Assembly (NCBI GenBank): GCA_025964675.1
Contig: JAOPYI010000223.1
Location: forward strand, 1-57,451
Direction of reading: 5' to 3'
Length of the DNA: 57,451 nt
DNA from: Sphaerisporangium sp.
GTDB lineage: Bacteria > Actinomycetota > Actinomycetes > Streptosporangiales > Streptosporangiaceae
Part shown: one piece after another, positions 2,526 through 7,246 of the stretch
Position numbering within the stretch: position 1 is the first letter of the stretch
How the letters are laid out: each line of letters begins with the position of its first letter
Notes under the pieces: model-generated
Told to the model about the DNA's origin: nothing
What the model saw: the letters and a program-made list of their open reading frames with translations, nothing else
Databases searched by the model: none
Made by a program: the position numbers and the translations under genes

Positions 2526-3245
2526 GAGACATGCCTCAGACCTACCGACGCGATGATCTTAGCGTCGACCAGCCAAGCCGTCCGCCGACCTGCTCTCGGT
2601 GACGTGAAGGCTCAGCCATTGCTTTCCCGGAACCGAAAATCTTTAGTGGCCGGAGTAGACATCTGTGGCCGGTGGGGGTAGTGTTCCTGACATCGCAAGG
2701 AACGGATCCACCAGGGCAGAGCAGGACGTAGGCATCACGACGAACTGCCCGGACGAGTGTGGATAGTAGTAAAGAGGGCGCAGAAAGACGGGCAGAAGGT
2801 CGGACGTGCCAGGACCAAAGCAGTTGAAGGGTCCCGGCCGTGGACGCGCTGCCACAGCAGTAGCAGCGAACAAGAGGCAAGGTCGGACGTGCCAGGGCCA
2901 GCGCAGGTGAAGGGTCCCGGCCGTGGACGCGCAGCTGCGGCAAGTGGTGAATGGGCAGAAGGTCGGACGTGCCAGGACCGAAGCGGTTGAAGGGTCCCGG
3001 CCGTGGACGCGCAGCTGCTGCAGTGATGCATGAGGTCGAAGAAGCAGAGATAGTGAAAGGAGTGTTGAACGCCATCAGGATCGCCCGTTGTCGGCTGATG
3101 TTCGCCGCACGGGTACCGCGGCTCCACGGATTGGACGGTGGTCTACGGTCACGCATGCGCGATCCCCGCATCCCCGCCCGCATCGGGCGGCCAATGCGGA
3201 AGAAACAGATCGGCCCCAGGGCCGGTAGATGGTGTTGAACCTCGT
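2526..3245 (+). other. non-coding stretch containing three long direct repeats
   Basis: No frame here has convincing coding character. A 213-codon minus frame (2542-3183) is open only because the repeats lack stops in that frame. A plus-strand MHEVEEAEIVKGVLNAI stretch near 3024 is short and unmatched. The recognisable content is the repeat array listed separately. Confidence 0.5.
2796..3017 (+). repeat. three direct repeats of about 55-60 bp, spaced 80-83 bp
   Basis: Copies begin at 2796, 2879 and 2959, each with AAGGTCGGACGTGCCAGG followed by a variable ten bases and then GAAGGGTCCCGGCCGTGGAC. The copies differ at a handful of positions in the middle. The 20-25 bases between copies are unrelated. 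Repeats are too long and spacers too few and too short for a CRISPR array, and no cas gene is near. They may be a recombination product or a protein-binding array in the island. Confidence 0.75.
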
Positions 3246-4117: not shown

Positions 4118-5338
4118 TGTAGGTGCCGAGAAAGGTGTCACGGTTGCTGAGCTGCGGTTTTGTCTGAGTGTTCGTGAGCGATTTGTCTGCGAGACGCTTG
4201 GTTGTCTGGCACCGTGAGTAGTCGTGGTCTTACGTTTGGTCTACCTGGTTCTGCTTCGCGTGTTCGGCTGGCTGGCCCTGCTGCCCCGTTCCGACGCGGC
4301 CAAGAACGCCGAGATTCTCGTGCTTCGTCATCAGGTCGCCGTCCTGCAGCGGCAGGTGAAGTCGCCGCGGCTGTCCTGGGCCGATCGGGCGCTGCTGTCC
4401 GGGCTGATCCGGCTGCTGCCCGCCGCTCATCGCCGGAGGCTGCGTCTGATCGTCTCGCCCCGGACGCTGCTGCGCTGGCACGCCGAGCTGGTCAAACGGC
4501 GTTGGACCTTCCCGCATCGGCGTCCGGGCCGGCCGCGCACCGTTGCCACGATCCGATCCCTGGTGCTGCAGATGGCCCGCGAGAATCCGTTGTGGGGGTA
4601 TCGCCGCATCGCGGGGGAGTTGGCCGGGCTCGGCCACCGGGTAGCACCCTCGACGGTATGGGCGATCCTCAAGGCCGCGGGCATCGATCCCGCACCGACC
4701 AGGGCGGGGCCGAGCTGGGCACAGTTCCTGACCGCGCAGGCCAAGACCATCGTGGCGGTCGATTTCTTCCACATTGACACCGCGTTCCTGCGCCGACTGT
4801 ACGTGCTGTTTCTGATCGAGCACGGCACCCGGAGAGTCCACCTGGCGGGCGTGACCGCACATCCCCACCGGCGCCTGGGCGGTGCAGCAGGCCCGCAACC
4901 TGCTCATGGACCTGCACGAACGGACCGGCGCCGACGCGTGGAGATTCCTGATACGCGATCGCGACGCCAAATACACGCCGGCGTTCGATGCGGTGTTCAC
5001 CGCGATCGGAGTACGCCTGATCCTCACCCCGATTCGGGCACCGAGGGCGAACGCGATCGCGGAAAGATGGATCTTGAGCGCACGGCGCGAGTGTCTGGAC
5101 AGAATGCTGATCGTCGGGCGGCGGCATCTGCAGCACGTCCTCGCCGACTACATCGACCACTACAACCGGCACAGACCGCACCGGACGCTGAATCAAATAC
5201 CGCCCGGCGGGCGAGCCGATCGCCCGCCGGCAACGGACTCGGCGGGCACCGCGCGGGTCATACGGCGCGACCGGCTCGGCGGGCTGATCCACGAGTATTC
5301 CCAGGTCGCATGATGTGACACAGTTTTCGGCACGCACA
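4118..5338. mobile_element. complete insertion sequence, about 1.22 kb, with imperfect terminal inverted repeats
   Basis: Left end at 4118 reads TGTAGGTGCCGAGAAAGGTG; the right end at 5314-5338 is, in reverse complement, TGTGCGTGCCGAAAACTGTG. They match at most positions, including GTGCCGA and TGTCAC. Between them lies a single transposase gene. I see no clean target duplication: left flank ends GGGGGAGCC and right flank begins GGCATGAAT. The IS sits at the 5' edge of a recombinase fragment, whose missing N-terminal part is not on the left side, so a deletion accompanied or followed insertion. Confidence 0.75.
4224..5313 (+). pseudogene. integrase-core (DDE) transposase with a +1 frameshift
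   Basis: Starting at GTG 4224, the protein has the actinobacterial IS layout: [50 protein letters not shown], then the catalytic domain with VAVDFFHID (first Asp). At a CCCC run at 4863-4866 one extra C throws the frame; deleting it restores [20 protein letters not shown]. The second frame (from about 4866, stop at 5313) supplies [11 protein letters not shown] (second Asp) and [10 protein letters not shown] (catalytic Glu), then [11 protein letters not shown]. All three acidic residues survive, so one base separates it from an intact enzyme. A sequencing error in the homopolymer is possible. Confidence 0.8.
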
Positions 5339-5563
5339 GGCATGAATCCGGGGGAGTGGACGCCCAGGGAACTCCGCCACAGCTTCGTCTCACTGCTCTC
5401 GGACAACGGCATACCGCTGGAAGAGATCTCTCGCCTTGTCGGTCACAGCAGCACAGCCACGACGGAAGCCGTCTACCGCAAGCAGATCCGCCCTGTACTG
5501 GAGACAGGTGCTCGGGCGATGGACCGGATCTTCGATCGCGAAGAGGGAAAATTTTCAGATTAA
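5339..5563 (+). pseudogene. tyrosine recombinase (integrase) C-terminal fragment
   Basis: Immediately after the IS right end the frame reads GMNPGEWTPRELRHSFVSLL, then ISRLVGHSSTATTEAVYRKQ. This contains the R-x-x-R/H box (RELRHSF), the H of LVGHSS and the nucleophilic Tyr of AVYRKQ, in the family's order. Catalytic Arg I and the whole N-terminal and core-binding domains are missing. The frame ends 9 bases inside the end of the convergent gene at 5555. It is what remains of the island's integrase. Confidence 0.75.
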
Positions 5564-6514
5564 ACCAAGAGCTTCTTCGGCAGAGGTGAAGCCGGTGCAA
5601 AAGCTTATGCAGCGGTGGCAATGAAGGACAGCGTCCGGGGAGTTGCGATTTGGTAGTTCGGTGAGCGTGTAATTGGGGATCTCGATCTTAGAGATTCGCG
5701 CGAGCGGGTCACGAGGGCGTGGTAGATACGAGATTTCATGAAGCTCTTCTACCTTGCGCACGACGGCATGTGCCGTAATGGGGTAAGTAGTTCCCGGGCT
5801 GTGGCGTTGACACTCCGTATCTCCGCAAATCGTGCAGCTATCGTCCGTATCAAGTTCCGCTGTCTTCTCGTAAACTTGGCCGGGCTGATGCTCGCACTCA
5901 GATAGATCGGAATCACAGACGGAGCAGTGCCGCTGAGCAGTGAAGCCAACCGACATCCCCATTCGAACATGCATTATGGACTGTCGGCATACATCGAACC
6001 AGGTGGTGCCATCTCGTTCGGCGACGCACCCAAATAGTCCCGCTGTAAGTTCGGCCAACCTATGCACGTAGTCATGGGCCTCGGACGCGTATGCGGTGTC
6101 CTCTAGATGATCAAAAGAGTTCACCGCAATGTTGAGAGCGGCTCGGGCACGTTGCTCTAGCCTGTCAAGATCGACTCCGGCGGCTGCCAGACACTTACGA
6201 AGCGCTGTCCATGCGCGTTGGCGAGCTCGCGTGATCGCCAAGCCTTCGTGCGGTATCCACGGCGCGGAAAGATCCAAGGGAGGTGGGACCTTGCAACGGC
6301 CAACTGAGAGTAGGTCCCGAAGGATCTGGCCGTACACGCGGCGCGCGTCGGAGAGAAGTTCTAGGCCGACGACTAACAAGATCTGGTTGCGAGCCGGGCC
6401 GCTGGGCGGAGGTAGCGAGACGCCGGTGCGGACAGCGTAACCCGCTGATCTTAGGCCGAGTAGAGAACGTGGAGGGCCGGTCCTGAACCAAATCGGATTC
6501 CGGGTCGGTTGCAT
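5555..6514 (-). CDS. unknown protein with three Cys/His clusters; second gene of a two-gene cassette
   Basis: I start it at the ATG at 6514, four bases after the stop of the upstream gene; a longer frame from 6556 would overlap that gene. It encodes 319 residues. The first half is helical (LLSDARRVYGQILRDLL, RARAALNIAVNSFDHLED). The second half has HCSVCDSDLSECEH, then CTICGDTECQRH and finally CHRCISFC, three metal-ligand-like clusters. The first two clusters are each followed by a G-x-x-Y turn, suggesting an internal duplication. Codon choice is AT-richer than in the core genes, consistent with transfer. I recognise no family; zinc binding is inferred only from the Cys/His pattern. Confidence 0.6.
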   Translation of the reverse strand: MQPTRNPIWFRTGPPRSLLGLRSAGYAVRTGVSLPPPSGPARNQILLVVGLELLSDARRVYGQILRDLLSVGRCKVPPPLDLSAPWIPHEGLAITRARQRAWTALRKCLAAAGVDLDRLEQRARAALNIAVNSFDHLEDTAYASEAHDYVHRLAELTAGLFGCVAERDGTTWFDVCRQSIMHVRMGMSVGFTAQRHCSVCDSDLSECEHQPGQVYEKTAELDTDDSCTICGDTECQRHSPGTTYPITAHAVVRKVEELHEISYLPRPRDPLARISKIEIPNYTLTELPNRNSPDAVLHCHRCISFCTGFTSAEEALGLI

Positions 6515-6518
6515 AATC

Positions 6519-7025
6519 TTAGGCTTGGCCGCCGCGCAGTAGCTCCCGAACCGCATCTACAACTTGCTCGCTAGGGCCGCTTATTTTTAGATTTTCAATT
6601 GTGCGGCCGTCTTCTAAAAGACGTCCCAAGCTTAGAGTCATGGTTGGCTCCTGTGCGTCATTTCCGCCACTCGCCCATGCGTTTCTAATGCGAGTGAGTA
6701 GTATTCGGGTAACTGAAACAACGCCTTCTTCGGCGAGGGCTTGGCCGATAAACATGGCTACTGCGAGTGCTATCTCTGAGCTGTACTCGCTGGCATAGGT
6801 GCGCTCAGAACTAGAGTGTGCCCACTCGGTGTTCACTCCAGCCTGGCGTAGAGCCTTCAGTGTTGATATATCCTCTGCCCGGTATTCGGCACGCCCATCA
6901 CGAACCCGCTGCGGGAGAATGAAGAGATCGGCTGGGTTCGGTGAGTCCAAGGGTAGATCGTGGAAGTAACCTGGGACCGGCAGTCGCTCTATCGTTACGC
7001 TTTCTGCAGCGCGGGAGTCAACCAT
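6519..7025 (-). CDS. unknown 168-residue protein; first gene of the cassette
   Basis: Starts at ATG 7025 after a GGAAGA site, 147 bases from the tRNA-Pro gene. The N-terminal third is polar (LPVPGYFHDLPLDSPNPADL, RVRDGRAEYRAEDISTLKAL). A hydrophobic helix, SEIALAVAMFIGQALAEEG, may be a core helix rather than a membrane span. The C-terminus reads MTLSLGRLLEDGRTIENLKI then GPSEQVVDAVRELL, a beta-beta-alpha pattern that could be a small ligand- or partner-binding domain. No catalytic motif is evident. It shares AT-rich codons with the gene behind it and the two are almost certainly one operon. Confidence 0.6.
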   Translation of the reverse strand: MVDSRAAESVTIERLPVPGYFHDLPLDSPNPADLFILPQRVRDGRAEYRAEDISTLKALRQAGVNTEWAHSSSERTYASEYSSEIALAVAMFIGQALAEEGVVSVTRILLTRIRNAWASGGNDAQEPTMTLSLGRLLEDGRTIENLKISGPSEQVVDAVRELLRGGQA

Positions 7026-7122: not shown

Positions 7123-7155
7123 AGAAGGCCGGTCCGAAGATCGGAACCGGCCTCT
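7123..7155 (-). terminator. hairpin 3' of tRNA-Pro
   Basis: AGGCCGGT and ACCGGCCT pair, extended by TCCGA/TCGGA with a one-base bulge, 17 bases beyond the 3' end of the tRNA on the minus strand. A likely tRNA transcript terminator. Confidence 0.6.
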
Positions 7156-7172
7156 GAGCTGGTACTGCTGGG

Positions 7173-7246
7173 TCGGGGTGGCGGGATTTGAACCCACGGC
7201 CTCTTCGTCCCGAACGAAGCGCGCTGCCAAGCTGCGCTACACCCCG
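7173..7246 (-). tRNA. tRNA-Pro (anticodon CGG)
   Basis: On the minus strand the acceptor arm CGGGGTG pairs with CACCCCG, the D arm is GCGC...GCGC, the anticodon stem CTTCG/CGAAG holds loop TTCGGGA (anticodon CGG), and the T arm is GTGGG TTCAAAT CCCGC. The discriminator base is A and CCA is not encoded. Length is 74 nt. It marks the border between the decayed region and the conserved core, as expected for an integration hot spot. Confidence 0.97.

Follow-up and report, generated by a model that had tools for sequence, protein, structure and literature searches.

A mobile gene pair of bacteria and archaea whose second protein has a core related to the zinc-bearing half of phage prohead proteases, and its possible role in anti-phage defence

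We have analyzed two adjacent genes, here called A and B, in a stretch of 57,451 nucleotides from Sphaerisporangium sp. (contig JAOPYI010000223.1; hereafter the window). The two genes form a mobile pair that is conserved across domains of life, infrequent within each single group yet broadly distributed. Sequence and profile comparisons trace the core of protein B to a zinc-bearing phage prohead protease, of which it represents the C-terminal half. Our leading reading, held tentatively and at somewhat less than an even chance, is that A and B are one mobile two-protein unit serving as an anti-phage module, in which B would be the sensor or blocker and A the effector or its partner.

Results and Discussion

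The gene pair in the window

The features of the pair are listed in Table 1. B starts at the ATG at 6514, four bases from the end of A; an alternative start at the ATG at 6556 would give a protein of 333 aa overlapping A. The original prediction, made from the sequence alone, had described two tightly coupled genes of 168 and 319 residues separated by four bases, between a tRNA-Pro(CGG) gene and a truncated integrase. Both ORFs were confirmed on the minus strand, and both flanking features are where it placed them. The integrase remnant corresponds to positions 119-167 of a 172-position Pfam profile and overlaps the last 9 bases of B. It adjoins an IS481/IS3-like transposase region (4224-5318, plus strand), split over two frames, which is probably the insertion that truncated the integrase. 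Codons had been described as richer in AT than those of core genes, and GC3 is indeed 0.515 in A and 0.594 in B versus 0.904, 0.897 and 0.922 in three neighbouring core genes; these values, far below those of the core neighbours, mark the pair as foreign. Since both A and B have homologues, adjacent or fused, in 18 further loci, they are true genes and not chance ORFs. The possibility that the pair is absent from any other genome, raised at the outset, is false for the same reason.

Two repeats were also observed in the window. A stretch of 66 bases (7148-7213), which spans the tRNA-Pro(CGG) gene from its 3' half to the adjoining downstream edge, recurs with 92% identity at G000:C188:21631-21696 (L077:7632-7697), on a contig where no tRNA was called; this second copy is perhaps an old attachment-site remnant. 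At 2790-3024 a 72-base repeat occurs three times, 79-92% identical to the reference copy, with a spacing of about 80.

Table 1. Features of the A-B pair in the window, and neighbours of the pair at other loci that matched PADLOC
Feature	Position	Strand	Remark
Gene A, 168 aa	6519..7025	-	ORF; alpha/beta with central hydrophobic segment; 5' of B in every locus read
A residues 34-38, ILP-motif strand	6912..6926	-	L37 and P38 nearly invariant in 16 A proteins
A residues 83-120, hydrophobic segment and following helix	6666..6779	-	Kyte-Doolittle, model
A residues 128-167, strand-strand-helix C-terminus	6525..6644	-	G150 invariant in 16 A proteins
Gene B, 319 aa	5555..6514	-	Helical N-terminal half, prohead-protease-like zinc core, C-terminal Cys cluster
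B Ser188, position of prohead protease serine (S-x-G)	5951..5953	-	Ser in 17/17 B proteins
B zinc knuckle 1, residues 197-215	5870..5926	-	C197, C200, C207, H209, Y215
B zinc knuckle 2, residues 227-238	5801..5836	-	C227, C230, H238; apparent tandem copy of knuckle 1
B EIS..PRDPLAR strand motif, residues 260-273	5696..5737	-	Matches EvSfV..PadqdA of prohead proteases; P267 invariant
B C-x2-C-x3-C cluster, residues 299-306	5597..5620	-	C-terminal
tRNA-Pro(CGG), probable integration site	7171..7246	-	Upstream of A
Tyrosine integrase C-terminal remnant	5315..5563	+	Convergent with B
Neighbour, locus L010			HNH gene related to SAVED/CBASS effectors (PADLOC)
Neighbour, locus L018			ZorE-like HNH (PADLOC)
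Neighbour, locus L022			DruM-like cytosine methyltransferase (PADLOC)
Neighbour, locus L032			ThsB-like TIR (PADLOC)
Neighbour, locus L033			E1-E2 protein, about 2 kb from nearest B (PADLOC)
Neighbour, locus L058			FRG protein, PDC-S15 candidate (PADLOC)

Distribution of the pair

A lies directly 5' of B, or is fused to it, in all 19 B loci read. Besides actinobacteria, the carriers are a pleolipovirus and a plasmid of haloarchaea, Rhizobium, Acinetobacter and Pseudoalteromonas, enterobacterial plasmids and a viral contig. Over 17 tabulated loci the spacing runs from a 65-base overlap to a 92-base gap, and the genes mostly overlap. The count of 19 leaves out G097, an Aeromonas hit, a Rhodococcus-phage hit and five loci with the protease itself, and four E. 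coli loci with near-identical copies are not among them. Of these four, AW1.7 has a short annotated B beside an IS3 element, and AH04 has remnants of phage tail genes at a distance of about 10 kb from the locus.

Few B matches were obtained among actinobacterial genomes: 6 of 297 in the order (E <= 0.001), 2 of 394 in the class and 3 of 396 in the phylum (both E <= 0.01), the own genome being counted each time, and the pair is therefore rare in these samples. The B match of G097 in the order search was judged spurious. Carriers include Herbidospora sakaeratensis, Planotetraspora mira, Actinomadura atramentaria and Planosporangium thailandense, all with A directly 5' of B, and Streptosporangiaceae NEAU-GS5, where a single ORF encodes A and B as one polypeptide. 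The actinobacteria G329 and G909 have the plain pair, and in G1013 A is followed by two short B genes.

Searches with A gave the same picture. The A profile matches 5 of 341 genomes of the family, and B is present in all five. A profile of 16 A proteins matched four of the 396 phylum genomes, namely the own genome, G909, G1013 and a new one, G716 (E 3.8e-9), in which the next gene is B, overlapping by 8 bases. In the G716 B the S-x-G, CSxCG...CxH and Y motifs are all present and the tail is SecC-like, and one gene beyond it an integrase-like fragment was recognised by eye. A match to A thus led to an adjacent B, as predicted. The earlier B search of the phylum, which did not report G716 although this genome was presumably in the sample, used a narrower profile of five actinobacterial B proteins.

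Spread beyond actinobacteria, and mobility

A tblastn search with the G1013 B matched a protein of the pleolipovirus Humcor2 at E 1e-3, and the gene that precedes it is A. Among plasmids, the Humcor2 B in turn matched one of Haloterrigena (60.2% identity), one of Rhizobium jaguaris (38.5%) and, at reduced coverage, others from Acinetobacter and one from Pseudoalteromonas; an A-type gene overlaps the start of B at all four of the loci read from these genera. Profile-profile comparison of 9 actinobacterial with 7 other A proteins gave a probability of 72.6%, an E-value of 3.2e-5 and a score of 37.3, against at most 15.0 for 60 column-shuffled profiles; for 10 actinobacterial and 7 other B proteins the values were 97.6% and 4.7e-12. 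PMC7911831 reports a tRNA-Pro gene as the integration site of Humcor2 (L050), which may coincide by chance with the tRNA-Pro of the window.

The Humcor2 record names B merely as a 'CxxC motif protein', and CxxC proteins are described in PMC7911831 as common in haloviruses. B might accordingly be a zinc-finger regulator of a mobile element, with no consequence for phages. This is very improbable in our judgement, given that the zinc element matches a protease half-barrel and that the carriers are unrelated elements.

Plasmid records with a match to the Acinetobacter B number 211, of which 198 cover at least 80% of the query. Of the 211, 182 are typed conjugative, and the main sources are Enterobacter (89), Citrobacter (40), Klebsiella (32), Escherichia (24) and Salmonella (11). 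All six enterobacterial loci that were read have an FRG-domain gene followed by A-B. In five of them a TPR-type gene and an ISNCY/ISLad2-like transposase precede the FRG gene; both are missing from the sixth, which is also one of the two loci with a short FRG gene. TPR-type and FRG genes before A-B (for example L058 3164-5342 and L059 3094-5272) occur on enterobacterial plasmids and E. coli chromosomes. The four-gene stretch matches 422 plasmid records, of which 204 hold at least 80% of it, and TPR-FRG-A-B behind an ISLad2-type transposase is possibly a four-gene transposon cargo. In a set of 5,426 complete E. coli genomes, some match to the A-B DNA occurs in 24, and in 21 at least 80% of it is present. 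On an IMG/VR viral contig (two contigs with identical ORFs) the order is integrase, A, B. The record of the A. baumannii pair (L060, NZ_CP077849.1) is titled plasmid yet measures 3.66 Mb and so is probably a chromosome, and an Aeromonas record of 4.9 Mb may likewise be one.

Protein B and its protease ancestry

The first pointers to phage heads were weak matches of B to two PHROG families, 16951 (unknown) and 80 (head maturation protease); below-threshold matches to Peptidase_S78 pointed in the same direction. When a profile of 17 B sequences (including that of the viral contig and omitting those of Citrobacter, Acinetobacter baumannii and G716) was compared by hhalign with four zinc-bearing proteases, the probability was 98.05%, the E-value 1.4e-13 and the score 94.5 over 75 columns, against a score of at most 17.0 for 60 column-shuffled profiles. 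The part in common is the second half of the protease, consisting of the Ser strand, the zinc knuckle and the E-x-S strand. Across the 17 B proteins S188, C197, C200, C207, H209, C230 and P267 are invariant and Y215 nearly so.

The four proteases are Moorella phage MTATph1 CDS0006, an XkdF-like protein of a Tepidibacter plasmid, Bacillus phage KLEB27-3 gp014 and a B. licheniformis plasmid protein. At all three loci with annotated neighbours (two phages and one phage-bearing plasmid) the gene is found in the interval from the portal or minor capsid gene to that of the major capsid protein. The Moorella protein, called a protease from its gene position and PHROG matches and not from annotation, matches PHROG 16951 at 3.4e-16, the head maturation protease 18299 at 5.1e-4 and PHROG 80 at 1.5e-3. 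A fifth protease-type gene, on an IMG/VR contig (L069), has a terminase-like gene nearby. With PF04586, whose cut-off is 21 bits, the best B scores were 14.8 (L013) and 16.4 (L022) and the window B gave no match; this model is insensitive here, the Moorella phage protein also being without it among the 25 families listed.

B thus has the S-x-G strand, the CSxCG...CxH..G..Y knuckle and the E-x-S-x-V..P strand of the zinc-bearing prohead proteases (PHROG 16951, PHROG 80, Peptidase_S78), but it is without their conserved upstream His and their N-terminal half, in place of which helices are predicted, as the original prediction had it for this half of B. Unlike them, it lies outside capsid genes and, at every locus read, after A: the pair is among capsid genes at none of the seven annotated loci, the other 12 being judged by eye. 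Ser and His are the conserved catalytic residues of prohead proteases according to PMC7411985. A His is found 60-62 residues before the first Cys (CxxC) in all four phage-type proteins and is presumably the catalytic one; only two of the 17 B proteins (window and A. atramentaria) have a His at this offset, which is not a conserved column. We therefore regard B as a relative put to other use, not a stray capsid gene. Similarity to a capsid family had been foreseen as an objection to a defence role; the relationship is real for the B core, but the annotated loci show no capsid neighbourhood and the His is not conserved.

Judged from the sequence, B is unlikely to be a working protease of the ordinary type, because the His is not kept, even though the Ser is present throughout. 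An active enzyme is still conceivable, since the Ser is invariant and in all ten actinobacterial B proteins a His stands six or seven residues before it, that is 15-16 before the first Cys. Such an enzyme might pair the Ser with another general base and cleave A, or some other protein, to activate it; the gene order is that of EACC1 and caspase systems, whose caspase is proposed in PMC7159879 to act so. This reading is improbable nonetheless: only Haloterrigena among the seven other B proteins has a His near -15, the Acinetobacter B has none in the 125 residues before the knuckle, and the phage offset is scarcely represented.

Three Cys/His clusters had been reported for B, two of them as apparent duplicates, and all three are present. 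For the first two, residues 187-216 (E 0.013) and 226-284 (E 0.003) each align with the single knuckle of the Moorella phage protein, weakly and in a small set, in agreement with duplication. The knuckle is doubled in most actinobacterial B proteins, and knuckle 2 is absent from G1013 and from non-actinobacterial B. In gammaproteobacterial B a SecC-like Cys motif replaces the C-terminal cluster; haloarchaeal and Rhizobium B have neither.

Protein A

The window A has no Pfam match even at E 10. Its best 19-residue Kyte-Doolittle mean is 1.66 (residues 85-103), and across 16 A proteins this value runs from 0.76 to 2.14, with a hydrophobic segment in most; membrane insertion is therefore possible for some A proteins and doubtful for others. 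Structure models of A and B, which had been called for at the outset, were obtained, with no significant fold match for either; the A model ends strand-strand-helix, as proposed from the sequence.

The arrangement resembles that of the EACC1-caspase systems (PF19953; Kaur et al. 2020, PMC7159879), which, as described there, likewise have a 5' alpha/beta gene with one hydrophobic helix and a larger multi-domain 3' gene and also occur in actinobacteria. However, A is without a PF19953 match, and profile-profile probabilities of 0.4-2.8% are not significant; scores of 14.3-19.7 compare with up to 13.6 for 60 shuffled controls, run for one of the three comparisons, and hydrophobicity is similar. 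No caspase or cyclase domain was found by Pfam in 12 B proteins scanned.

The hydrophobic segment of most A proteins, the small and mostly overlapping genes and the frequency of the pair on plasmids would also suit a toxin-antitoxin or plasmid-maintenance pair without phage sensing, in which A would be a putative membrane-active toxin and B its neutraliser, stabilising mobile DNA. Two of the plasmids, of 8.8 and 10.1 kb, carry other toxin-antitoxin genes as well. We consider this unlikely: for an antitoxin B is large and multi-domain and has ancestry in common with a phage enzyme, the two are fused in NEAU-GS5, and G1013 has two B genes per A.

Defence context

Both proteins had been assigned to no recognised family, and neither has a significant match in Pfam or NCBIfam; in PADLOC-DB 2.0.0 the ten A and B proteins of five pairs (window, Humcor2, Rhizobium, Acinetobacter and Pseudoalteromonas) gave only a chance Cas8 match at E 0.44. 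Ten neighbour genes picked by eye were also scanned against PADLOC at E <= 0.001, and six of the proteins matched (Table 1). No match was obtained for the other four, which are two genes of L011, one of L012 and the 8xMP gene of L032. Several of the six matches extend over no more than a generic domain (HNH, methylase) and so fail to establish a system. On the Acinetobacter plasmid (L055) an OLD/GajA-like ATPase adjoins the pair, and an AbiEii-type gene is also present. No defence gene is named in the annotation surrounding the pairs of Pseudoalteromonas and Haloterrigena. In G909 (L032 3683-6232) the TIR (ThsB-like) gene, the 8xMP membrane gene, a gene for a 97-aa protein, A and B form a tight run in one direction, possibly a larger operon.

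The defence-like neighbours are suggestive of defence, but the sample was selected. Recurrence at variable, defence-rich loci had been put forward as support for a system. The recurrence holds, with A and B paired at every locus read, six of these on plasmids and several beside integrases or transposases; several loci also adjoin defence-like genes, among neighbours picked by hand. The pair was not found described in the open-licence PMC literature, among the matches listed, and may sit unnamed in supplementary tables of defence screens; the words SecC, prohead and FRG are absent from the main text of PMC13092281.

Proposed function

We favour a module that senses or poisons phage heads because a half-protease protein would be well placed to meet phage head parts. 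The helical domain of B together with its zinc-stabilised protease half barrel would form the sensor or blocker. Late in infection B would dock on parts of phage head assembly (prohead protease, scaffold or procapsid), and A, an effector or a partner that holds one, would be released or assembled once B engages. We infer the defence function, the head-assembly trigger and the action of A, at the membrane or by oligomerisation. Doubtful, in our estimate, is the more specific proposal of a cross-domain immunity in which a domesticated half of a head-maturation protease is the bait, and the phage protease or procapsid, by completing it or competing with it, switches the partner on. The pleolipovirus carrier is without a tailed-phage head, so the target there would have to be a competitor. 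The half-barrel of B might also be only a structural module.

The trigger proposed here, a head-assembly protein, is of the kind known from capsid-sensing defence (Thoeris ThsB with the major head protein, the CBASS cyclase with the prohead protease, and CapRel). According to PMC11312562 a capsid protein triggers Thoeris and a prohead protease the CBASS cyclase, the latter citing Richmond-Buccola et al. 2024. A and B differ from these systems in that no such domain was found in them, and their trigger is conjectural.

B could also interfere directly, as a form of piracy: a decoy protease half would join and poison the phage prohead protease, provided that zinc-type prohead proteases pair through this half, with A as a scaffold partner and without cell death. 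B keeps the half with Ser and zinc knuckle and has helices in exchange for the part that bears the His, the carriers include an integrase-bearing viral contig and a pleolipovirus provirus, and defence by blocking virion assembly has a precedent, as reported in PMC10884400. As this leaves A unexplained, we think it rather unlikely.

If the proposed sensing or poisoning of phage heads by A-B is right, the pair puts a conserved phage enzyme to use for sensing or poisoning phages, and such a module sits on enterobacterial conjugative plasmids, many of them from patients, and in an archaeal virus. The pair is compact and is found in some E. coli. Even without a defence function, the analysis names a pair of protein families currently annotated as hypothetical or as SecC-motif zinc proteins, and gives an origin for the core of B.
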